A stretch of DNA of 64,000 nt, taken from positions 186,001 to 250,000 of the forward strand of contig NZ_JBDQQR010000004.1 in NCBI RefSeq assembly GCF_039888675.1, given 5' to 3'. Below, piece by piece: positions 6,617-54,886 of this stretch (the first letter of the stretch is position 1; every line of letters begins with the position of its first letter). This DNA comes from Mesorhizobium sp. CAU 1732 (GTDB taxonomy: Bacteria; Pseudomonadota; Alphaproteobacteria; Rhizobiales; Rhizobiaceae). Both the position numbers and the translations under genes were made by a program. The notes under the pieces were generated by a model. That model did not search any database and was not told the origin of the DNA. It saw only the letters and a list, made by a program, of their open reading frames with translations.

Positions 6617-7614
6617 GCGCGGCTCCCATGGTCGAAATCATAGGCGTTTCCAAACGCTTCTCGAAGGCGCCGAGCCTCGGCAACCGCATCGTCCGACGTT
6701 TCGGCGGATCCGAGCCGCGCACGACGGTCCATGCCATCGACGGCGTCGACCTCAAGATCGCCAGAGGGCAGGTTCTCGGGCTGGTGGGAGAGTCCGGTTG
6801 CGGAAAATCGACGCTCGGACGGATCGTTGCCGGTATCATGCCCCCTTCCGAGGGAGAAGTGCGCTGGCAGGGCGGCGGCGAGCGCCCTGCCCATGCGGAG
6901 GCCCGCAGGGCGAAGCTCGCCATCCAGATGATTTTTCAGGATCCGATGTCGTCGCTCAATCCCCGCATGCGCGTGGCCGACATCGTCGGCGAAGCGCCCC
7001 TGGTCCACGGCCTTGTCGCCAGGCGGAACATCGATGCCTATGTCGATGAGCAGCTTGTCCGCGCAGGGCTCGATCCGGCATACAAGAAGCGCTATCCGCA
7101 TCAGTTCTCGGGCGGACAGCGCCAGAGAATCAGCATTGCCCGGGCGCTGGCCGTGCAGCCGGAATTTCTGGTGTGCGATGAATCGGTTGCGGCGCTCGAC
7201 GTGTCGATCCAGGCTCAGGTGATCAACCTGTTCATGCAATTGCGTGAAGAGCTCAACCTCACCTATCTATTCATCAGCCACGATCTGGGCGTGGTCGAGC
7301 ATCTCAGCGATCGCGTCGCGGTCATGTATCTGGGACGGATCATCGAGGAAGCGCCTGTCGAAGAGATTTTCGCGAAGGCCAACCATCCCTATACGCAGTC
7401 CCTGCTGGCCGCCGTGCCGAGGGTCGAGAATCGAAAGTCTTCCTTCGCGACCGTGAAGGGGGAAATACCGTCGCCCCTCAACCCGCCGGCCGGCTGCCAT
7501 TTCCACCCCCGCTGCCCGCATGCCTTCGCACGATGCAGAAGCGAACGCCCGGCCATCAGGCAGATCGCTCCCGATCACTTCAGTGCATGTCATCTCAATG
7601 ACGGGTCGGTCTGA
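6613..7614 (+). CDS. ABC transporter ATP-binding protein, DppF type
   Basis: A 333-residue second ATPase, starting at ATG 6613 and overlapping the previous stop by four bases (ATGA). It shows Walker [10 protein letters not shown], signature [14 protein letters not shown], Walker [15 protein letters not shown] (Ser where many homologues have Pro after the catalytic Glu), and the C-terminal [14 protein letters not shown] cluster. It completes the five-gene importer. No terminator is obvious after it, but the following amidohydrolase has its own operator, so that unit is probably transcribed separately. Confidence 0.93.
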
Positions 7615-7702
7615 ATTGGTTCGGCTTCAGCGGCCACAACCGTTCGAGTCCGGCTTTGGCAGATCATATCCAATGCCGTCCTAAATGGAGACGGCACGCG
7701 CT

Positions 7703-7720
7703 CAATACAGAACTGTATTG
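7703..7720. promoter_or_regulatory. TetR-type operator 3, upstream of the amidohydrolase pair
   Basis: CAATACAGAACTGTATTG is a perfect 8-2-8 palindrome and the best copy of the motif also found at 619 and 2003. It lies 51 bp before the first amidohydrolase start. A convincing -35/-10 pair is not visible; TTGTAC at 7718 with TATTTC at 7741 is possible. Confidence 0.75.
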
Positions 7721-7770
7721 TACAGCGGTTTTCCGCGTGTTATTTCGCTGGAAGGTTCCGGGAGAGAGAA

Positions 7771-8997
7771 ATGATCATTTTCGAGAATGCGCGTGTTTTC
7801 AATGGCATTGCGGCTGAACCGATGGAGGGTGCGACCGTCGTCGTCGAGAGCGGCACGATCAAAGAGGTATCGGACCGCCGGTTCGGTGGTTCCGGAGAGC
7901 GCATTGATCTCGTCGGCCGCACGCTGATGCCCGGTCTCATCGACCTGCACACGCACCCTTGGATTACCGAACTGAATTTGGGCCGCGTCAGCCGGCAACG
8001 AACGGAGTATCTCGCGCTGCATCTGGCCGGGACGCTCCGCGGCAGCCTCGATCGCGGCTTCACGACGCTTCGCGACGCCGGCGGCACCGATCCGAGCTAC
8101 TGCGCCGCGATAGACAAGGGGTTCATTCCCGCGCCGCGCCTGTTTCCGTCCGGTCGGATGATGTCGCAGACCGGCGGACATACGGACTGGCGGGACGCGA
8201 ACGAAGCCGACCGGGCCAATGTGAGCGATGATGGCATGTCCCGCTTCACCGCTCTTGTCGACGGGCCCGATGCGATGCGCCGGGCGGTGCGGGAAGAGCT
8301 GCGGCGCGGCGCGACCCAGATCAAGCTGATGCTGTCCGGAGGCGTGGCGTCGCCAACCGATCCGCTGGAGCGCGTGCAGTTCTCGGACGAGGAGATCAGG
8401 GTCGCGGTGGAGGAGGTGACGAGGCGCGGTACCTATTGCTTCGCGCATTGCCATCCCCTGAACTCGATCCGCAAGGCCCTCGAAATGGGTATCCGAACAA
8501 TCGAGCATGCGACGTTCATCGATGATGAAACGGCGCGTGACGTGGCCGCTTCACCCGACACCTACGTCGTTCCGACGCTTGCGGTCGTCAGTGTCTTGAC
8601 CACGGAAGGGCGTGCGCTCGGTCTCCCCGATGCCAGTCTGAAGAAGCTCGAGGGCTTGTACGACGTATCGATGGGCAGCCTCGAGATCATGAAGCGTGCG
8701 GGCGTCAAGATGGGCTACGGAACCGATTTGCTCGGCTCCAGCCAGGACCAGCAGCTCCTGGAGTTCGAACTCAGGGCGGACGTTCTCTCCGCGCATGAAA
8801 TTCTGGTCTCGGCCACGAGCCTGGCGGCTGAAATTCTCGGTCAGGAGGGTCGGCTGGGCGTCGTAGCTCCAGACGCGGTCGCCGACTTGATCGTGGTCGA
8901 TGGCGATCCGCTCGCAAATGTCAGGATCATGAACCAGGGCGGCCGGAACATTCCGATGGTGATGAAAGCCGGCGAATTCCACCGGCGTCAGAACTGA
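7771..8997 (+). CDS. Metal-dependent amidohydrolase (imidazolonepropionase/Xaa-Pro dipeptidase-like), first of a pair
   Basis: A 408-residue TIM-barrel amidohydrolase with a GGGAGAGA ribosome site before ATG 7771. Metal ligands of the superfamily are in place: HTH at residues 60-62, Lys185 in IKLMLSGG as the likely carboxylated bridging residue, His226 (CFAHCH), His246 (IEHATF) and Asp319 (GYGTDL). This layout fits binuclear-zinc enzymes that cleave cyclic or dipeptide-like amide bonds (Pro-Xaa dipeptidases, hydantoin- or imidazolone-like rings). No signal peptide is seen, so it acts in the cytosol on what the adjacent importer brings in. It shares motif spacing with the next gene, indicating an old duplication. 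Confidence 0.9.
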   Translation: MIIFENARVFNGIAAEPMEGATVVVESGTIKEVSDRRFGGSGERIDLVGRTLMPGLIDLHTHPWITELNLGRVSRQRTEYLALHLAGTLRGSLDRGFTTLRDAGGTDPSYCAAIDKGFIPAPRLFPSGRMMSQTGGHTDWRDANEADRANVSDDGMSRFTALVDGPDAMRRAVREELRRGATQIKLMLSGGVASPTDPLERVQFSDEEIRVAVEEVTRRGTYCFAHCHPLNSIRKALEMGIRTIEHATFIDDETARDVAASPDTYVVPTLAVVSVLTTEGRALGLPDASLKKLEGLYDVSMGSLEIMKRAGVKMGYGTDLLGSSQDQQLLEFELRADVLSAHEILVSATSLAAEILGQEGRLGVVAPDAVADLIVVDGDPLANVRIMNQGGRNIPMVMKAGEFHRRQN

Positions 8998-46936: not shown

Positions 46937-46948
46937 TTGGATACAATA
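46935..46948. promoter_or_regulatory. Possible GntR operator at the start of the regulator gene
   Basis: TATTGGATACAATA is a 5-4-5 palindrome. It overlaps the likely -10 region (17 bp after TTGACA at 46912) and directly abuts GTG 46949, so autoregulation is likely. Confidence 0.45.
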
Positions 46949-47587
46949 GTGACTTCGGATACAGAGGAGACTCGGGCAGAATCGGCTGCCATCCAAATCA
47001 GGACGCTGATCCTGAACGGCATATTTCAGCCGGGCCAGCCATTGCGCCAGGAGGCATTGTCGGAGCAACTGAGCATCAGTCGAACACCACTGCGGCACGC
47101 TCTCCAATCGCTTGCCGACGACGGATTGGTCGAGACGATCGGCTACAAGGGAGCAAGGGTTGCGAAGCTCGATCAAAGAATGGTCGACGACCTGTTTGAC
47201 ATGCGGTTTTTGCTGGAGCCGCTGGCGCTCCAATCCGCCTTTGGACACCACACCAAGCTTGATTTCGCCAGAGCGGAGATGGCGCTCGACGCCGCCGAGG
47301 CGGAACGAGAACCGTCGAAGCTTTCGGAACTGAACTGGGAATTTCACCATGCCCTCTATCGTCCGTCAAACCGGCAGACACTTTTGCGGACCATCGAGCA
47401 ATTGAACAAGGCGTCGGCTCTCGCCGAGGTGATCGCGAGTTCTATCGTCGTCCGACCCGAAAAGTCGGCGACCGAACATCGGAAATTGCTTCAGGCCTGC
47501 CGGGATGGCCACGAGGCCGGTGCGCTTGCAACGCTAGGCGAGCATTTGCGGCTTGCCTATCACGACATACAAAAGCGGAAAGAATGA
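46937..47587 (+). CDS. GntR family regulator with FCD domain
   Basis: A regulator of 216 residues from TTG 46937 or 212 from GTG 46949. The winged helix is RQEALSEQLSISRTPLRHAL, and the FCD part has MRFLLEPLALQSAFG, NWEFHHALYRPSN and ATEHRKLLQACRDG. No Shine-Dalgarno precedes either start. The -35/-10 placement would put transcription initiation almost on GTG 46949, so a leaderless message is possible. Its stop overlaps the start of an M20 amidohydrolase, the probable target. Confidence 0.88.
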   Translation: MDTIVTSDTEETRAESAAIQIRTLILNGIFQPGQPLRQEALSEQLSISRTPLRHALQSLADDGLVETIGYKGARVAKLDQRMVDDLFDMRFLLEPLALQSAFGHHTKLDFARAEMALDAAEAEREPSKLSELNWEFHHALYRPSNRQTLLRTIEQLNKASALAEVIASSIVVRPEKSATEHRKLLQACRDGHEAGALATLGEHLRLAYHDIQKRKE

Positions 47588-48750
47588 AGATGCCCGTCAA
47601 GAACAGGATCGCCGAATTTCACGACGAAATGACCCGGTGGCGGCATCATCTTCATGCCCATCCCGAGCTTTCCTACCAAGAACACGAAACTGCCAGCTTT
47701 GTCGCGGAAAAGCTTCGCTCCTACGGAATCGACGTGACTGAAGGCGTGGGCGGAACAGGCGTTGTCGGCGTGCTTCACGGCAACCGCGAAAGTGAACGCT
47801 CCATCGGACTCAGGGCTGACATGGATGCGCTTGCGATTGAAGAGCGCAATGATTTCGCGCATCAATCGAAGAACACGGGCGTTATGCACGCCTGCGGTCA
47901 TGACGGGCACACAACGATGCTTCTCGGCGCCGCTCGCTATCTGGCCGAAACCCGGAATTTCTCAGGCAGGGTCGTTTTCATCTTCCAACCTGCCGAAGAG
48001 ATGGGAGGCGCAGACGGCGGCGCCGCGCGCATGATCCGTGAAGGACTGTTCGAGAACTTCCGCTGCGACGAGATTTACGGGTTGCACAACTGGCCCGGAA
48101 TGGAGGTCGGAACCTTCGCCGTGAAAGCGGGGCCGATGATGGCGTCGGGCGATGCCTTCGAGGCCGAGGTGACGTCCACCGGAATGCATGCGGCACAGCC
48201 GCACAAGGGAGCCGACGTCATCCTCACGGCAGGACACATCCTCGTCGCGCTTCAGCAGATTTCCTCGCGAAACACCGACCCTCTGGACGCGATCGTCGTC
48301 AGCGCCACGCAAATTCACGGTGGCGATGCCTATAACGTCCTGCCAAACAAGGTCACCATTCGAGGCACTGTGAGGGCATTCTCTCCCATCGCTCGGGCAG
48401 CAGCGGAGCCCGCCGTACGGCGCGTCGTGGAAGGCATCGCGTTGTCGACTGGGGCGCAATGCAAGGTCTCTTACGCTCAGCAATATCCGACGCTCATCAA
48501 TTCGCAGGCCGCTGCGCGGTCAGCAGAGATCGCGGCGACCTCGGTGTTCAACAAGGTCGAGACGAATCCGCCGCAGACGATGATCGTCGAGGACTTCGCC
48601 TTCATGCTTGAAGACCGGCCCGGATGCTACGGATGGATCGGCAACGGCCCTGATGACAATGGCCGCATCCTGCACAGCGCCTGGTTTGATTTCAACGACG
48701 AAGTACTGCCCTTCGGAGCTTCCTATTTGGCGTCCCTCATCGAGTTGTGA
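47584..48750 (+). CDS. M20 family amidohydrolase (hippurate hydrolase/N-acyl-amino acid deacylase-like)
   Basis: A 388-residue zinc or manganese hydrolase. Metal-binding and catalytic blocks: LRADMDALAIEE, VMHACGHDGHTTML, FIFQPAEEMGGADGG, YGLHNWPGMEVG, and the C-terminal His in ILHSAWFDFNDE. The dimerisation (lid) domain lies about residues 185-295. Such enzymes cleave N-acyl or aroyl amino acids in the cytosol. It is co-translated with the upstream GntR regulator (ATGA overlap). No transporter is adjacent, so the substrate is uncertain. Confidence 0.92.
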   Translation: MKMPVKNRIAEFHDEMTRWRHHLHAHPELSYQEHETASFVAEKLRSYGIDVTEGVGGTGVVGVLHGNRESERSIGLRADMDALAIEERNDFAHQSKNTGVMHACGHDGHTTMLLGAARYLAETRNFSGRVVFIFQPAEEMGGADGGAARMIREGLFENFRCDEIYGLHNWPGMEVGTFAVKAGPMMASGDAFEAEVTSTGMHAAQPHKGADVILTAGHILVALQQISSRNTDPLDAIVVSATQIHGGDAYNVLPNKVTIRGTVRAFSPIARAAAEPAVRRVVEGIALSTGAQCKVSYAQQYPTLINSQAAARSAEIAATSVFNKVETNPPQTMIVEDFAFMLEDRPGCYGWIGNGPDDNGRILHSAWFDFNDEVLPFGASYLASLIEL

Positions 48751-48759
48751 CGAAACCAG

Positions 48760-49040
48760 GTTCACGTCACCGGAACGGATCGGCGGGCATTTCCGGAGCA
48801 TCTGTCGCACGAGCGCATCATGATCGCCGCACCCGAGAGCTGCCCGTGCTATGGCTCGACCAGACTCTCGAAGCTGGGCGAGGACGTCATCGAGACGCTG
48901 GATACGATCCCGCGCCAAAGGAAGGTAATCCGGCCCTTCGCAGGTATAGCGCCACCGGCAGCACTGTTCTACGCGTCCCGCGATCAGCCCAAGCAACCCT
49001 CGGACGCACAGTGTAGGGCGAAAATGAGGGTATTCACAGC
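48760..49040 (+). mobile_element. IS66-family transposase fragment
   Basis: The frame contains ERIMIAAPESCPCYGSTRLS, then KLGEDVIETLDTIPRQRKVI, the zinc-binding and following strand region of IS66 TnpC transposases (second Cys pair altered to Cys-Tyr). The match shifts frame before PPAALFYASRDQPK and ends. No inverted repeats or partner genes are visible, so it is a scrap. Confidence 0.7.
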
Positions 49041-49104
49041 CCTTTCACCTGCAGCGTGTCTGCTTGCTAGATTGGTCCATCTCATGGTCTTCGTATAAGG
49101 CGCT

Positions 49105-49437
49105 TCACCCAGGCGGTATGCGGAAGACCATGCCGAGAACGACGACATAGAACGCGAGGTGAACGCCACGCGCCAACCGCTCTTGCCGACCCGGCATACC
49201 CCGCATCGGGAGCGGCTTTTTGTCGATGAACCACCACCAGATGATGCGGAACGCTGTCAGCAGCAAGGTGATGATGGCGGCCGGAATGTGGATGAGCAGG
49301 AAGCCAGCGTTGACGGCCTGCTCGACAGCATTGCCCGCCTGAAACCCGGAGCCAAGCGCCAAAAGGATGGGAATGGCGGCAAGCCAATGGATGGTGATCG
49401 GAATCGCGTCATAGCGGTCAGGGCTGCTTTTCAGCAT
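49105..49437 (-). pseudogene. Cytochrome b561, C-terminally truncated
   Basis: A 110-residue membrane protein with RYDAIPITIHWLAAIPILLA and AGFLLIHIPAAIITLLLTAF, carrying haem-ligand histidines in the first two helices, and a third helix in VHLAFYVVVLGMVF. Family members have about 170-185 residues and four helices; this one stops after the third, where the IS66 scrap lies. It would normally pass electrons in the inner membrane. MarR-type operators lie upstream on its strand. Confidence 0.65.
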
Positions 49438-49593: not shown

Positions 49594-49610
49594 ATGTGTA
49601 TTATACACAT
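49594..49610. promoter_or_regulatory. MarR-type operator a
   Basis: ATGTGTATTATACACAT is a perfect 8-1-8 palindrome and the best copy of the motif repeated seven times in this module. It lies upstream of the truncated cytochrome b561 gene. Confidence 0.75.
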
Positions 49611-49646
49611 AGAAAAAGGGAGGGGATGGAGGCATGTCAAATCAAA

Positions 49647-49663
49647 AAGTGCATGATACACAT
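49647..49663. promoter_or_regulatory. MarR-type operator b
   Basis: AAGTGCATGATACACAT matches the same palindrome, with its centre 53 bp from that of site a. Confidence 0.7.
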
Positions 49664-49753
49664 TTGTAGGCTGGCGACTTCAGTCGGCGAACCGGTTGAT
49701 GAGGCGCCATATGAGAGATTGCCAAACGCGGGCAACTCTCGTGATGACGGAAA

Positions 49754-50998
49754 TCACCGTGCAAGAGGCTGCGATAATTGTAACGGAAAGGCCGGCGTAT
49801 CCTTCCACAATGTCCCGGAGGCCGCCTGCTCGTAGCCAAATCTGTACACGGCCTGCATATACTTCTTGCTGAGCGGATTAAGCATCGAATAGGGAACCTG
49901 GACCTCGATCGACGCGACATGGAAACTTGCCCCCGTGCGGCGGGTATGGTTGTAAAGCGCAGTCAATTCGCTTTGCGCCTGAGATTTCAGGAAGAGCGAG
50001 TATGCTCGGCCCAGGGCGGGCACCGTCCTGTTGGGCGTGATATCGAACTCGGGAATGAGCGCGTTGTTGACGATCACGTATAAATTGACGTTCCGCTGAA
50101 CTTGCCTCTCGGAAAAAAGTGCGTTTTCCACGAGAAGAGGTGGTGTCAGAACCTGGGAAATTGATCCTCCATCCGAATGCAGCTCCTGAAACTGCCGACC
50201 GTTTGACACAGCTTGGATCTGGACCGGTGGAAAGACGCCTGGGACACTTGCCGAAGCGACGATAACATCTCGAAACAACTTCAGCGCATCCGGGTTTTCG
50301 CTTGCAGCAATGGCCCCCATGTTCCAGATCACGCCGCGTTGGGTGTCGAGGTTTGTCGTGAGAACAAACAGCCGTCGTCCTTCGTGGTGTTCGGCGGCAA
50401 TCTGGTTGAGGACATGTGGCGTGATAAATCGTTCCACATGTCTTTTGAGCGGCCCGGCTTTGAGCAGACTTGAGCCAAACAAACCGAGGGGACCGTTGAG
50501 TGCGACAAGTTCCTGGGCGACACCGCTGGTATATTGATGCACCAGCAATTTGTCGTAGGCAGGACCCAGGAAGGCGTATGGGGCAATCAAGGCGCCGGTG
50601 CTGACGCCGGTGACGACATCGAAACGCGGGCGCGTGTTAGTGGTAGTCCACCCCGCGAGTACGCCGACACCGAAAGCGCCGCTGCCGCCACCACTGGAGA
50701 TCATCAGTATGTTTTTCTTTGCGGACTGGGTCTTGACCATCCAGTCGCTATGCCTTGCAAGCGCTTCGTTGCGCGGGGAATAGCGGTAGGCGCGGATTTC
50801 ACCATAGCCCGCGATCAAGGCATGGTCGGCCTCCTCGGCGTTGGAAGCGCGCTCTGGCGTGTACATGCATGCGGACAGAGCCAGCGTGACGGACAAGAAA
50901 ATCATCAATGTCCGCATAGATCGCCCGATTACGAAGCGATCAACCAGCACCCTTGGATAGTTGCGAAAGAGCACGTCTCTCACAGCGGAAGCCATCAT
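49754..50998 (-). CDS. Patatin-like phospholipase, putative lipoprotein
   Basis: A 414-residue protein from ATG 50998, which has a strong AGAAGGAG site. Patatin motifs: oxyanion loop SSGGGSGAFGVGVLAGW, catalytic Ser in GVSTGALIAPYA, and the dyad Asp in SDGGSIS. A lipobox (LALSACMYT) lies about residues 38-45; starting at the internal ATG 50917 would give a standard 17-residue lipoprotein signal, so either start is possible. Patatins hydrolyse lipids or related esters. It is downstream of the MFS pump on the same strand and part of the MarR module. Confidence 0.85.
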   Translation of the reverse strand: MMASAVRDVLFRNYPRVLVDRFVIGRSMRTLMIFLSVTLALSACMYTPERASNAEEADHALIAGYGEIRAYRYSPRNEALARHSDWMVKTQSAKKNILMISSGGGSGAFGVGVLAGWTTTNTRPRFDVVTGVSTGALIAPYAFLGPAYDKLLVHQYTSGVAQELVALNGPLGLFGSSLLKAGPLKRHVERFITPHVLNQIAAEHHEGRRLFVLTTNLDTQRGVIWNMGAIAASENPDALKLFRDVIVASASVPGVFPPVQIQAVSNGRQFQELHSDGGSISQVLTPPLLVENALFSERQVQRNVNLYVIVNNALIPEFDITPNRTVPALGRAYSLFLKSQAQSELTALYNHTRRTGASFHVASIEVQVPYSMLNPLSKKYMQAVYRFGYEQAASGTLWKDTPAFPLQLSQPLAR

Positions 50999-51125
50999 CG
51001 TGTCTCCTTCTGACTGCCTGCCGGTTCTGTTTGCCGAAATGTTGTGTCTTGTCATGGAGCGGGTTCTTTCGAGCCGGTTTGATAAGGAGCGCTGCCATCT
51101 TCACGGCAACCGCACGCTTATTGAT

Positions 51126-52379
51126 TCACCTGCCCTCAACTTCCGGGTCGGTGGGCGGAAGCTTTGTCCATGCAATCGCTGCGGTAATCGCGACGAAGGC
51201 GATGATAACGCCAGTCCAAACTCCGTAGAGTGCTCGGCCGATGAGGAAGCCGGCGATTACGGGAGTGACGGCCTCCGTGGCGGCAAGCAGCGATTGGGTC
51301 GTTCCCAGCACGATCCCCTGCCGCTCCCGCGGGGCATGGACGGAGAGCGCCGCGAGGAAAGTGGGGCGCGCCAGTGCGTCGCCGACACCGACGCAAAGGA
51401 TGGCAAGGACGAGAACCGGAAGCGTGGTCGCAAAGCCGACAGTGATGTAGCCGACGGCCACAATGGCGCATATGAGAACGATCAGCCGGCGTTCCGTGAA
51501 GTACCGCCCGATCCATTGCAGCAGGAACAACTGGAAGATGATGTTGATCGCGCCATCCGCGGCCATGATGTAGCCAAGCTCGCGCGGTCCAAACGATTTG
51601 CCTTCACCGACAAAGGTCGCTTGAAGGTAGTTGGCGATCTGCGAGCCATACATGCCATAGGCAACGAAGTAACAGAGCAGCACGATCACAAGCACTCGGA
51701 TCAAGGGAGAACTGACGATCGACCGGAACGAGACCTTTTCGAGAGAAGCGTCGCTTCGGGTTGACGCATCGACGCCGTTGGAGGCTGCGTGGCTGCCCTT
51801 GATCCAGATAGTTGTTACGGCGAGGCTGGCCGCGGAGAGCGCCATGGCCGCGTAAATCGGAACGGTCAGCGAGATGTCGGACAGATAGCCTGTCAGCCCC
51901 GCTCCGACGATACCTCCAAGCCCGACAGCGGCATTCAGAATGCCTATGGCCTGCCGTCGGTTGGCAGGGGAGCTGTGGTCCGCGGCGTAGGCGACTGCGG
52001 CGGTGAGTGTCCCGCCCGTCAAGCCGAACAGCATGCGCGCCATCAGAACTGGCAACACCGTCTGTGCAAGAGCGAGCAAAAGGAAGCTGGTAAATGCGGC
52101 GGCCTGCGTGGCCAGCAGGATTTTCTTACGCCCCAGGCGATCGGAAAGCTGACCGACAAGAGGCGCGGCCACAAACTGGGTGAGCGCTTCCGTGGCGATC
52201 ACGATACCGAAAATGAGCGGCGTTCCGCCCATCTCCTTGAGGTAGAATGGCAAAATCGGCAAGGCAGCGGCGGCACTTGCTGCATAGAAGCTGACGCTCA
52301 GGAACACCGGCAGCATCACGCGCCAATCAAGTCTTGGCGTCTCCTTGCCACCCCCTGCTGTCAGTACGTTGACATTCAT
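51126..52379 (-). CDS. MFS efflux pump, DHA1/TetA-like
   Basis: A 417-residue protein with about twelve membrane helices; ATG 52379 is preferred over an upstream GTG. The A-motif after helix 2 reads GQLSDRLGRKKILL, and the motif in helix 5 is AVGLGGIVGAGLTGYLSD, an exporter-type antiporter signature. It probably expels a drug-like or aromatic compound. Two palindromic operators lie in its promoter (TTGACG at 52495-52500, TATGTG at 52471-52476), and the patatin-like gene follows it. Confidence 0.9.
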   Translation of the reverse strand: MNVNVLTAGGGKETPRLDWRVMLPVFLSVSFYAASAAAALPILPFYLKEMGGTPLIFGIVIATEALTQFVAAPLVGQLSDRLGRKKILLATQAAAFTSFLLLALAQTVLPVLMARMLFGLTGGTLTAAVAYAADHSSPANRRQAIGILNAAVGLGGIVGAGLTGYLSDISLTVPIYAAMALSAASLAVTTIWIKGSHAASNGVDASTRSDASLEKVSFRSIVSSPLIRVLVIVLLCYFVAYGMYGSQIANYLQATFVGEGKSFGPRELGYIMAADGAINIIFQLFLLQWIGRYFTERRLIVLICAIVAVGYITVGFATTLPVLVLAILCVGVGDALARPTFLAALSVHAPRERQGIVLGTTQSLLAATEAVTPVIAGFLIGRALYGVWTGVIIAFVAITAAIAWTKLPPTDPEVEGR

Positions 52380-52458
52380 CTCGCGAGCCCCTGCTGTTGA
52401 CCGCACATGCGTCGCGGATGACCAAATTCGCTCCGCAGGGATTTGCCGTCACTCGATC

Positions 52459-52475
52459 ATGTGTAGTATGCACAT
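52459..52475. promoter_or_regulatory. MarR-type operator c, on the -10 of the MFS pump promoter
   Basis: ATGTGTAGTATGCACAT matches the module's palindrome and covers the predicted minus-strand -10 of the pump gene. Confidence 0.75.
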
Positions 52476-52505
52476 AGCTGTGATAGGCGGGGGTCGTCAA
52501 CAGAA

Positions 52506-52522
52506 AAGTGTATAATGCACAT
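52506..52522. promoter_or_regulatory. MarR-type operator d
   Basis: AAGTGTATAATGCACAT is a copy of the palindrome, just upstream of the pump's -35 box; its centre is 47 bp from that of site c. Confidence 0.7.
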
Positions 52523-52549
52523 TATTAACGACGCGCTGCTCCATCTCAT

Positions 52550-52566
52550 ATGTGCATCATGCACTT
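52550..52566. promoter_or_regulatory. MarR-type operator e, in front of the quinone reductase remnant
   Basis: ATGTGCATCATGCACTT matches the palindrome and ends six bases before the start codon of the truncated quinone oxidoreductase gene. Confidence 0.7.
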
Positions 52567-52571
52567 ATGAG

Positions 52572-52700
52572 ATGGATCGCAAGGCATTGGTCGTTCAGGA
52601 ATTCGGGCAGTCGCCGGTTTATGCGGATTTTACCGATCCGATCACCGGATCGGGCAAAGTCCGGATCGCCGTCAAGGCCGTCGCAGTGAGCCAGGTGGTT
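52572..52700 (+). pseudogene. Zinc-type alcohol dehydrogenase/quinone oxidoreductase, N-terminal stub
   Basis: From ATG 52572 the frame reads KALVVQEFGQSPVYADFTDP and then GKVRIAVKAVAVSQVVKSR, the first beta-strands of MDR-family quinone reductases. After about 43 residues the similarity ends abruptly and the frame continues into unrelated sequence up to 53039. It was probably once the divergent partner of the MFS pump under the same operators. Confidence 0.65.
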
Positions 52701-52838
52701 AAGAGCAGACGGTGTTCACCGTATGACGTTCGGATACTGATCGACGCGGGACCTGAACGGCCAACGTCAAGTGCGGTTCATCGGCCGGTGGCCAGCTCTT
52801 GGCGGCAATTCGCCCGCCGGCACGTCCATTTGAGCCAC

Positions 52839-53324
52839 CTATTTCCCGGTAACTGGCTGCCTGCTCATGCCATCGGCGAGCATACGCATAAGCCGGATCA
52901 GTGCGTCGAAGTCTTCGCGGGGCCAATCCCGGAACAGGTTCAACGCCATCTTTTCCCGCGCCACATCGACGGCGTCCGTCGCTTCCTTTCCTCGCGGTGT
53001 GATGACGGCCTCACGCACCCGCTTGTCGGCGGAGCCTGAGCGGCGCTCGATGAGTTCCAGCGCTTCAAGACGCGCCACCTGGCGGCTCACGGTCGTGTAG
53101 TCGCGCCCGACACCTTCGGCCAGTTCCACGACGCCGATCGGTCCCCGTCGCTCGATCATGACGAGAAGAGGAAAAAGTGCTCGTTCGAGCGTAAGTCCGG
53201 CCATTTCCAGCATCTGCGCGTCGCGCTCAGGGCGGTTCATCAGACTGGCGATGTCGATGAGCGAACGGTACAGCTCGGGCAGCTGTTTTTTAATATATGT
53301 ATTATGCACCTTTTTTGTTGACAC
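52839..53324 (-). CDS. MarR family transcriptional regulator
   Basis: A 161-residue winged-helix protein. GTG 53324 is supported by AAGGAG eight bases upstream. The DNA-binding part is GVVELAEGVGRDYTTVSRQV, followed by the wing (ERRSGSADKRVREAVITPRG with its Asp-Lys-Arg core). It is divergent from the FAD monooxygenase and transcribed toward the MFS/patatin unit. Two copies of the palindrome lie at its start, one inside its first codons, so it should repress itself as well as its neighbours until a small aromatic or drug ligand binds. Confidence 0.9.
   Translation of the reverse strand: MSTKKVHNTYIKKQLPELYRSLIDIASLMNRPERDAQMLEMAGLTLERALFPLLVMIERRGPIGVVELAEGVGRDYTTVSRQVARLEALELIERRSGSADKRVREAVITPRGKEATDAVDVAREKMALNLFRDWPREDFDALIRLMRMLADGMSRQPVTGK
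53295..53311. promoter_or_regulatory. MarR-type operator f, within the first codons of the regulator
   Basis: ATATGTATTATGCACCT is the weakest copy of the palindrome. It lies inside the 5' end of the marR gene and next to the -35 box of the divergent monooxygenase promoter. Confidence 0.5.
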
Positions 53325-53346
53325 GCCGGCGTCTCCTTATGATATG
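53318..53346 (+). promoter_or_regulatory. Promoter of the FAD monooxygenase
   Basis: TTGACA at 53318-53323 is followed after 15 bp by TATGAT (53339-53344) or after 16 bp by TGATAT. The -10 touches operator g, so bound MarR would block initiation. Confidence 0.55.
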
Positions 53347-53360
53347 TGCATCATACACAT
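53344..53360. promoter_or_regulatory. MarR-type operator g, between the regulator and the monooxygenase
   Basis: ATGTGCATCATACACAT is a near-perfect copy of the palindrome. It ends 11 bases before the monooxygenase start codon and overlaps its -10/+1 region. Confidence 0.75.
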
Positions 53361-53371
53361 TGGAGGTGGCA

Positions 53372-54886
53372 ATGGAAGACGAATACACTCTCGCAGTGCT
53401 GATCTGCGGTGCCGGCGCCGCCGGCCTCACACTTGCTATCGACCTTGCCCGGCGTGGCGTGGCGTTTCGCCTGATCGAGAGGATGGATCAGCCGTTCTCC
53501 GGCTCACGCGGGAAAGGCATCCAACCGCGAACCCAGGAAGTGTTTGAGGATCTGGGTATCATCGACCGGGTTGTCGCGGCAGGCGGCACCTATCCCCGGA
53601 TGCACGAGTATCAAAATGATGGCACCTATACCGAACGGGACGTCGCCGAGCGGGACGATCCAACGCCGGCAGAGCCTTATCACATGGCGCTGATGATCCC
53701 GCAGTTCCTGACAGAGCGGCTCATGCGCGAGCGGCTCGCGGAGTTCGGCCATCGCGTTGAATTCGGATACGAACTTGTCGGCTTCGAACAAGGCGAGGAC
53801 GGCGTTACTTCGCGCCTGGTGGGACCAGCCGGCGAAGAGGTCGTCCACAGCCGCTATCTTATTGGAGCAGACGGCGGCCGCAGCTTCGTGCGGGGGGCTC
53901 TCGACGTCGGTTTTCCCGGTAAGACTCTGGGCGTGCGGGCAATGGTGGCGGATGTCGCGCTGACCGGCCTCGACCGCGAGGCCTGGCACCAGTTCAACGG
54001 TGGCAACATGGAGCGAATGGTCTCGGTTTGCCCGCTCGCCGGAACCGATCTTTTCCAGATCCAGGCAATCATTCCACTGGAAGGCGAAGTGGACCTTTCG
54101 GCCGATGGAATCGAACGAATGATCGTCGAGCGAACCGCGCGCAATGTCGCGAAGATTCAATCGGTGACCTGGGCCTCGGCTTACTCCATGAATGCCCGCC
54201 TCGCCGACCGCTACCAGATTGGCCGCGTACTCCTCGTAGGTGACGCTGCCCACATCCATCCGCCGACCGGCGGCCAGGGCCTCAATACCAGCGTTCAGGA
54301 CGCCTATAATCTGGGGTGGAAGCTGGCTGCGGTACTCAGTGGCGCTCCGGATCGTCTGCTCGACAGCTATGAAAGCGAGCGGCGTCCGGTCGCGGAAGCG
54401 ATGCTCGGGCTTGCAGCCGGCCTTCTTGAGGCGGCAAGGCGTGGGGAGATGCGGCGCGGTCGCGAGGTGCACCAGTTAGACACCGGATATCCCGGGTCGC
54501 CGCTCGCTGCAAATTCGCCCGGACGCATGGGCGCGTTGCATGCCGGAGATCGCGCTCCCGATGCGCCGCTGCATGGTGCTGCCGGATGTTCCCGACGCCT
54601 CTTCGACTTGTTCACCGGCCCGCACTGGACGCTCATAGGTTTTGAGGCCGAGCACGCTATCACCAAGGGAAGAAATGGCCTGCACATTCACCAGGTTGGA
54701 GCCGGTTGCGAGCTACAGGACGTGGGTGGCCATTTCCGCGACGCATACGAACTGGTATCCGGCGAATGGGTGCTCGTTCGACCTGACGGCTATGTCGCCG
54801 CGATCGTAAGGCCAGATGAGGCCTCCGCGCTCCAAACACTTTTCGCCGAGGCGGGACTGACGGGCGTCGACGGATTGCCGCACTGA
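53372..54886 (+). CDS. FAD-dependent aromatic monooxygenase (RdmE/rifampicin monooxygenase-like)
   Basis: A 504-residue flavoprotein monooxygenase from ATG 53372 (GGAGGTGG ribosome site). The FAD motif GAGAAGLTLAIDLARRG lies near residue 15, the DG motif region is RYLIGADGGRSFVRGAL, and the second FAD block is GDAAHIHPPTGGQGLNTSVQ. The C-terminal thioredoxin-like domain (LFDLFTGPHWTLIGFE; WVLVRPDGYVAAIVR) is typical for polyketide and rifamycin hydroxylases. It adds oxygen to an aromatic compound using NAD(P)H. Shared operators with an MFS pump suggest modify-and-export detoxification. Confidence 0.9.
   Translation: MEDEYTLAVLICGAGAAGLTLAIDLARRGVAFRLIERMDQPFSGSRGKGIQPRTQEVFEDLGIIDRVVAAGGTYPRMHEYQNDGTYTERDVAERDDPTPAEPYHMALMIPQFLTERLMRERLAEFGHRVEFGYELVGFEQGEDGVTSRLVGPAGEEVVHSRYLIGADGGRSFVRGALDVGFPGKTLGVRAMVADVALTGLDREAWHQFNGGNMERMVSVCPLAGTDLFQIQAIIPLEGEVDLSADGIERMIVERTARNVAKIQSVTWASAYSMNARLADRYQIGRVLLVGDAAHIHPPTGGQGLNTSVQDAYNLGWKLAAVLSGAPDRLLDSYESERRPVAEAMLGLAAGLLEAARRGEMRRGREVHQLDTGYPGSPLAANSPGRMGALHAGDRAPDAPLHGAAGCSRRLFDLFTGPHWTLIGFEAEHAITKGRNGLHIHQVGAGCELQDVGGHFRDAYELVSGEWVLVRPDGYVAAIVRPDEASALQTLFAEAGLTGVDGLPH

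Follow-up and report, generated by a model that had tools for sequence, protein, structure and literature searches.

The 64,000-nucleotide stretch of the Mesorhizobium sp. CAU 1732 genome considered here (contig NZ_JBDQQR010000004.1, positions 186,001 to 250,000 of the forward strand; referred to below as the window) carries a gene for a MarR-type regulator, marR, divergent from a gene for a flavin adenine dinucleotide (FAD) monooxygenase. Near these lie a putative exporter of the major facilitator superfamily (MFS), a patatin-like gene, two gene remnants and seven copies of a short palindrome. The locus probably encodes a MarR autorepressor that a ligand releases, and the small regulon around it, local in extent, would modify and export compounds, with the palindromes serving as operators. 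The genes, predicted operators and predicted promoter elements are as follows (window coordinates; bp, base pairs).

49105 to 49437, minus strand: truncated cytochrome b561 gene, 110 amino acids
49594 to 49610: predicted operator, the downstream one of the two before b561, 0 mismatches; the alignment to the Aurantimonas endophytica locus L005 ends here, with no counterpart found in L005
49647 to 49663: predicted operator, the upstream one of the two before b561, 53 bp from 49594; L005 has a single site in the corresponding position (9602)
49754 to 51055, minus strand: open reading frame of a patatin-like phospholipase; likely start at about 50917, where most listed homologues begin
51126 to 52379, minus strand: MFS exporter, distantly Tet-like (family scans)
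52459 to 52475: predicted operator over the -10 of the leftward MFS promoter (TTGACG at 52500-52495, minus strand; 18 bp; TATGTG)
52506 to 52522: predicted central operator, common to the divergent MFS and quinone-reductase promoters; the same triplet is present in L005 and in Paracoccus L079
52550 to 52566: predicted operator over the -10 of the rightward promoter of the quinone-reductase remnant (TTAACG at 52525-52530, a 4/6 match; 18 bp; TATGTG)
52572 to 52709, plus strand: remnant of a quinone-reductase-like gene, start region, about 46 codons kept (open frame in L079 at 7383-8366)
52839 to 53324, minus strand: marR, GTG start, 161 amino acids, winged helix, no cysteine; ribosome-binding site AAGGAGA
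53295 to 53311: predicted operator O2, inside marR (peptide VHNTY)
53318 to 53323, plus strand: predicted -35 element TTGACA of the monooxygenase promoter, in marR codons 1-3
53344 to 53360: predicted operator O1 of the monooxygenase promoter, covering its -10/start region and lying 11 nucleotides 5' of the monooxygenase ATG
53372 to 54886, plus strand: class A FAD monooxygenase, PRK06184 subfamily, 504 amino acids (family scans)

The seven palindromes lie exactly where the original prediction had placed them (49594, 49647, 52459, 52506, 52550, 53295 and 53344), and they are the only matches to AWGTGYATNATRCACWT in the window with up to three mismatches. Five match perfectly, the site at 52459 has one mismatch and that at 53295 has two. 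Dinucleotide shuffles of the window (n = 100) give a mean of 0.77 matches and a maximum of 3, and none has seven. The site at 53295 had been described as lying between marR and the monooxygenase gene, but it is actually inside marR, at codons 5-10 counted from the GTG at 53324. A genome scan (5,438,500 bases, at most two mismatches) with RTGTRYATNATRYACAY, which is slightly wider than AWGTGYATNATRCACWT, finds 15 places: the seven sites and eight scattered matches, of which two are AT-rich with one mismatch and six have two mismatches. The reversed-pattern control gives 2 matches. Short palindromes in several copies could also arise by chance or belong to a mobile repeat family resembling repetitive extragenic palindromic (REP) elements, but hardly any copies exist elsewhere in this genome, their spacing is fixed and in register with promoters, and they are conserved in distant loci. 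A REP-like repeat was rejected because of this near-absence elsewhere and the clustering at marR starts; its probability is negligible.

The MarR clade is carried by 26 of the 397 genomes sampled from the order (the window genome among them) and by 11 of 398 genomes in a sample of the phylum. Sites were compared in 47 relative loci, comprising 25 from the order (12.5-14.5 kilobases (kb) fetched around each marR), L005, 16 regions from a plasmid collection and five from the phylum sample. At up to two mismatches, 75 sites lie within 100 bp of a marR start (9.4 kb) versus 17 in the other 597 kb, and 15 of these 17 fall in three extended-cluster loci (L005, L078 and L079). Near marR, two or more sites are found in 34 of the 47 loci, one in 7 and none in 6. 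When the 25 order relatives are scanned genome-wide at up to one mismatch, all 32 matches are at marR (18 of 25 genomes; reversed control, 2). A single-site pattern does not discriminate, with at least one match in 89 of the 397 genomes. The strict two-site pattern occurs in 8 of the 397 order genomes and 3 of 378 phylum genomes, two of the latter already being among the order's 8, with no control match in the order sample.

The palindromes are very probably docking sites for this MarR. An alternative is that they are operators of another transcription factor and that marR is merely one of its targets; contact between MarR and the sites is a prediction, and clusters under outside regulators do exist. 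Arguing against this, the strict pair is confined to genomes with this MarR (8 of 8 in the order, all among the 26 carriers, and 3 of 3 in the phylum). The pair also travels with marR into records of Alphaproteobacteria and Gammaproteobacteria despite differing other neighbours. A different factor is highly improbable. Among the matches listed, plasmid-collection records with the MarR clade come from Rhizobium, Sinorhizobium, Agrobacterium, Paracoccus, Salmonella, Enterobacter and Klebsiella. Searches of complete E. coli genomes gave no near match to the operator pair of Salmonella. The two Klebsiella records from the plasmid collection contain trp and ompW genes and seem to be pieces of chromosome.

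The site pairs appear to form a promoter cassette, new here, in which TTGAC stands right after the first operator and the -10 overlaps the second. Operator pairs were scored at up to three mismatches in the 47 loci and the window, and 47 of the 52 pairs contain a hexamer matching TTGACA in at least five of six positions, compared with 13% of random spacers. This -35 hexamer is mostly 5-6 bp past the upstream operator and 24-27 bp ahead of the downstream operator, and therefore a -10 some 17-18 bp further would overlap the downstream operator. In the window, such cassettes precede the monooxygenase gene (53295/53344), the MFS gene (52506/52459) and, with the weaker TTAACG, the quinone-reductase remnant (52506/52550), the site at 52506 in the middle of the triplet serving both directions.

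The upstream operator at marR lies within its coding sequence, where most relatives read V-(Q/H)-N-T-H. The partner gene's -35 occupies marR codons 1-3 in the window and codons 2-4 in many relatives. Codon choice over this operator is skewed: CAA makes up 27 of 28 glutamine (Q) codons (0.24 expected from the local background), AAT 25/26 (0.38), ACA 28/29 (0.13) and CAT 34/36 (0.45), as counted in the 37 of 48 loci with an alignable N-terminal peptide. The skew persists in a thinned set of 25 rows excluding Pannonibacter, the deviating L053 and others (CAA 16/16, AAT 17/17, ACA 20/20, CAT 22/24). As related sequences are not independent, the p-values for these counts are not literal. The bias among synonymous codons indicates that selection acts on the DNA at the operator within marR. 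Pannonibacter L078 is a natural control, as its marR is the last gene in a monooxygenase-MFS-patatin-marR run and keeps the peptide MQTTHI, the operator codons are lost, and it is the monooxygenase gene that has an operator pair in front. The overlap of an operator, a partner gene's -35 and the start of the regulator's own coding sequence is a clear case of DNA-level constraint within a gene.

The window MarR has the winged-helix domain PF01047 (40.5 bits; cut-off 24.6), and its predicted structure (pLDDT, a per-residue confidence score, 88.8) is an ordinary MarR fold with a long first helix. The conserved palindromes are consistent with the dimer binding, and the repression of its own and adjacent genes, expected of a MarR regulator. 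An OhrR-like thiol switch, for which a conserved reactive cysteine is the criterion, was rejected because this protein has no cysteine; ligand release is therefore more likely. Among 48 extracted MarR proteins, in a few of which the script misjudged the start site, 13 have one or two cysteines, with no common position except residue 88 in three.

The proposed model takes as its starting point the sites, the cassette, the DNA-level constraint and the linkage to the MarR clade, all of which the sequences show, and is as follows. MarR dimers would occupy both of two operators about 48 bp apart and so cover the intervening promoter, one dimer just upstream of the -35 and the other over the -10, such that the target genes and marR are kept low. 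A small ligand, and not a cysteine switch, would release MarR, after which the monooxygenase would hydroxylate the compound (which may be phenolic, flavonoid-like or a quinone) and the MFS pump would export it. The patatin lipoprotein would act in the envelope, and relatives would also employ a quinone-reductase-like enzyme together with DUF4405 or b561 as a small membrane protein. The MarR regulon originally predicted, consisting of the monooxygenase, MFS and patatin genes and the two remnants with the palindromes as operators, is upheld by sequence comparison. By all sequence tests it appears to be a real, conserved and local regulon, known in kind but unusual in how compact its control region is.

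Several observations weigh against this model. In six of the 47 loci (L054, L056, L058, L078, L092 and L111), good sites are absent around marR; L054 and L056 have three-mismatch sites, marR is decayed in L092, and in L078 marR has moved and the sites are elsewhere. Of the 26 genomes with this MarR, 18 lack the strict two-site pattern, and the window's is one of them. Five of the 52 operator pairs have no good -35, including 52506/52550 of the window and those of Klebsiella-type loci. The two b561 sites are 53 bp apart, and with TTGACA at 49640-49635 (minus strand) the gap from -35 to -10 is too long; this pair may have decayed like its gene. A plain sigma-70 scan is at chance, with 2 promoter-like sites versus 2.6 expected. 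The earlier statement that two sites cover -10 boxes is based on the comparative cassette, and the promoter register is drawn from comparison because the scan has no excess over shuffles. The promoter of marR itself was not located. The MarR fold search returned many close MarR structures, none of which indicates a ligand.

The genes at marR vary among relatives. Directly across from marR, the 25 order genomes have a monooxygenase gene (14), a quinone-reductase-like gene (5), a DUF4405 gene (5) or none of these (1), and the loci with DUF4405 in this place (L051-L054 and L056) have a quinone-reductase-like gene further on. DUF4405 follows the monooxygenase gene in L035, L037, L057 and Komagataeibacter L087. 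In total, this membrane-protein gene recurs in 8 of the 25 order loci, L079 and L087, either at the place of the window's b561 remnant or beside the enzymes (for example, L079 4191-4713, L051 6451-6972 and L053 7633-8130). Paracoccus denitrificans L079 matches the plan of the window, with a pair at marR/monooxygenase, a triplet between the MFS and reductase genes and a pair upstream of a gene for a small membrane protein, which is DUF4405 in L079 and b561 in the window. In L079, this last pair (4666/4713) lies behind the second MFS gene, and the DUF4405 gene that follows is shortened by an IS21-type insertion. A weak operator pair directly precedes the reductase gene in L053. Enterobacter L089 has monooxygenase, reductase and MFS genes in one run; Klebsiella and Sodalis loci have the reductase only. 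P. denitrificans HAMBI_2443 carries the cluster, and this MarR is also listed for strain PD1222.

Both window genes that had been called stubs are indeed incomplete. The b561 protein has 110 amino acids versus 177 in L005, a closely related cluster whose proteins are 83-92% identical, and the reductase remnant retains about 46 codons versus a 328-codon open frame in L079. The best NCBIfam match of this quinone-reductase-like gene is a PIG3-type quinone oxidoreductase (87.4 bits, below the cut-off of 296.8). The gene directly after MFS codes for the patatin in four loci (the window, L005, Pannonibacter L078 and A. cucumeris L081), and patatin lies within 5 kb of marR in at least six records (among 40 of 80 and 40 of 84 rows listed). 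The protein has a lipobox, LSAC (read by eye), weak matches to PADLOC effectors (36.3 bits at best) and, in a search of solved structures, one barely significant match, to an unrelated isomerase.

Among the families listed (the best 25 of 65 for the monooxygenase and of 48 for the pump), the monooxygenase exceeds the cut-off solely for NF004832/PRK06184 (731.3 bits versus 476), a subfamily labelled "hypothetical protein" with no assigned substrate. Its structure prediction (mean pLDDT 61.6) is too low for a fold search. The regulon could act on an antibiotic, with the monooxygenase and pump forming a resistance module, as the two proteins distantly resemble rifampin monooxygenase, aklavinone hydroxylase and Tet pumps, and a Salmonella plasmid carries one relative close to IS26 and an integron. 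However, the monooxygenase falls short of the cut-offs for rifampin monooxygenase (NF033145; 238.8 versus 800) and the aklavinone hydroxylases RdmE (209.4 versus 700) and DnrF (190.1 versus 650), as does the pump for Tet(A)/Tet(B)/Tet(C) (NF012174; 143.7 versus 475). In addition, 10 of the 25 order relatives have a quinone-reductase-like gene rather than a monooxygenase gene at marR (five behind DUF4405). The antibiotic-resistance reading was rejected on these missed cut-offs, which leave the idea that the module inactivates and expels an aromatic antibiotic unsupported and, overall, quite unlikely. Because the redox enzymes interchange at marR, the regulon would seem to deal with one chemical class, likely phenolic or quinone-like, and not with one antibiotic.

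Class A monooxygenases commonly start aromatic catabolism, and the regulon could serve such a purpose, with the monooxygenase opening a degradation route. The recurring partners are instead MFS, quinone-reductase-like, DUF4405 and patatin genes, and no recurring ring-cleavage gene is present in those neighbourhoods for which annotation could be inspected (no search for catabolic genes was made in unannotated loci); a catabolic role is doubtful.

The nearest functional parallel to this MarR unit is, by analogy of layout, YetL/YetM of Bacillus subtilis, which a review describes as a monooxygenase and a MarR repressor that flavonoids release, encoded by divergent genes (PMC10458429). As in that system, marR adjoins a monooxygenase gene with the logic of a repressor, layout alone being compared; unlike it, the window unit adds a pump, patatin and the quinone-reductase remnant. 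Efflux regulators of the MarR/MexR/EmrR type share 13-25% identity in the listed folds, and here marR is paired with a monooxygenase or a quinone-reductase-like gene. PecS/MftR, in which a urate-responsive MarR protein is encoded next to an efflux gene, have a similar fold but different gene partners. Genes in the Salmonella copy are arranged as in STM1546-STM1549, and by this arrangement alone its plasmid marR is presumably STM1547. STM1547 (transcription) and STM1548 and STM1549 (translation) are listed among genes co-regulated with Salmonella pathogenicity island 2 (PMC2639726), and STM1547 is named among MarR regulators (PMC6469979); in contrast, STM1546 is described as protecting DNA from alkyl hydroperoxides (PMC10116068).

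Neither a description of this regulon nor the exact 15-base operator cores were found in the literature searched, and the operator and promoter model offered here for this MarR clade is precise and testable. Naming the inducer would assign a function to a monooxygenase subfamily that has none so far. More tentatively, it is possible that the MarR clade and its two-operator cassette constitute a transferable control unit with interchangeable output (monooxygenase, quinone-reductase-like enzyme, DUF4405/b561 membrane protein or pump) read from one redox-active chemical class. Extended versions might couple modification and export to a change in envelope lipids through the patatin lipoprotein and, in Pannonibacter, through a run of phosphatase, ceramide glucosyltransferase and glycosyltransferase genes.

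This Pannonibacter run is preceded by a second operator pair (L078 3076 and 3120), 44 bp apart with TTGACA between, about 3 kb from marR; relatives of the ceramide glucosyltransferase are found on other plasmids. Cystobacter fuscus (the source's name; P0024 and P0169) has a monooxygenase and a MarR that are both 74% identical to those of the window, which suggests horizontal transfer. Agrobacterium fabrum C58 (L092 6992-7456) retains a decayed marR of the clade with one weak site. In Komagataeibacter L087 (5073-5948), the monooxygenase match beside marR covers just a short piece and is followed by the DUF4405 gene. On the Salmonella IncHI2 plasmid (L088 5072-5446), about 125 MFS residues match beside the monooxygenase gene, next to IS26. 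Beyond the b561 remnant, the window has an IS66 transposase remnant at 48820-49095 (zf-IS66, 24.9 bits, below the cut-off of 27.3), and on this side the b561 gene of the Aurantimonas relative still has its end, accompanied there by another MFS gene that has two operators. A GntR regulator gene followed by an M20 amidohydrolase gene occupies positions 46937-48750 of the window, with no site of the palindrome motif there.

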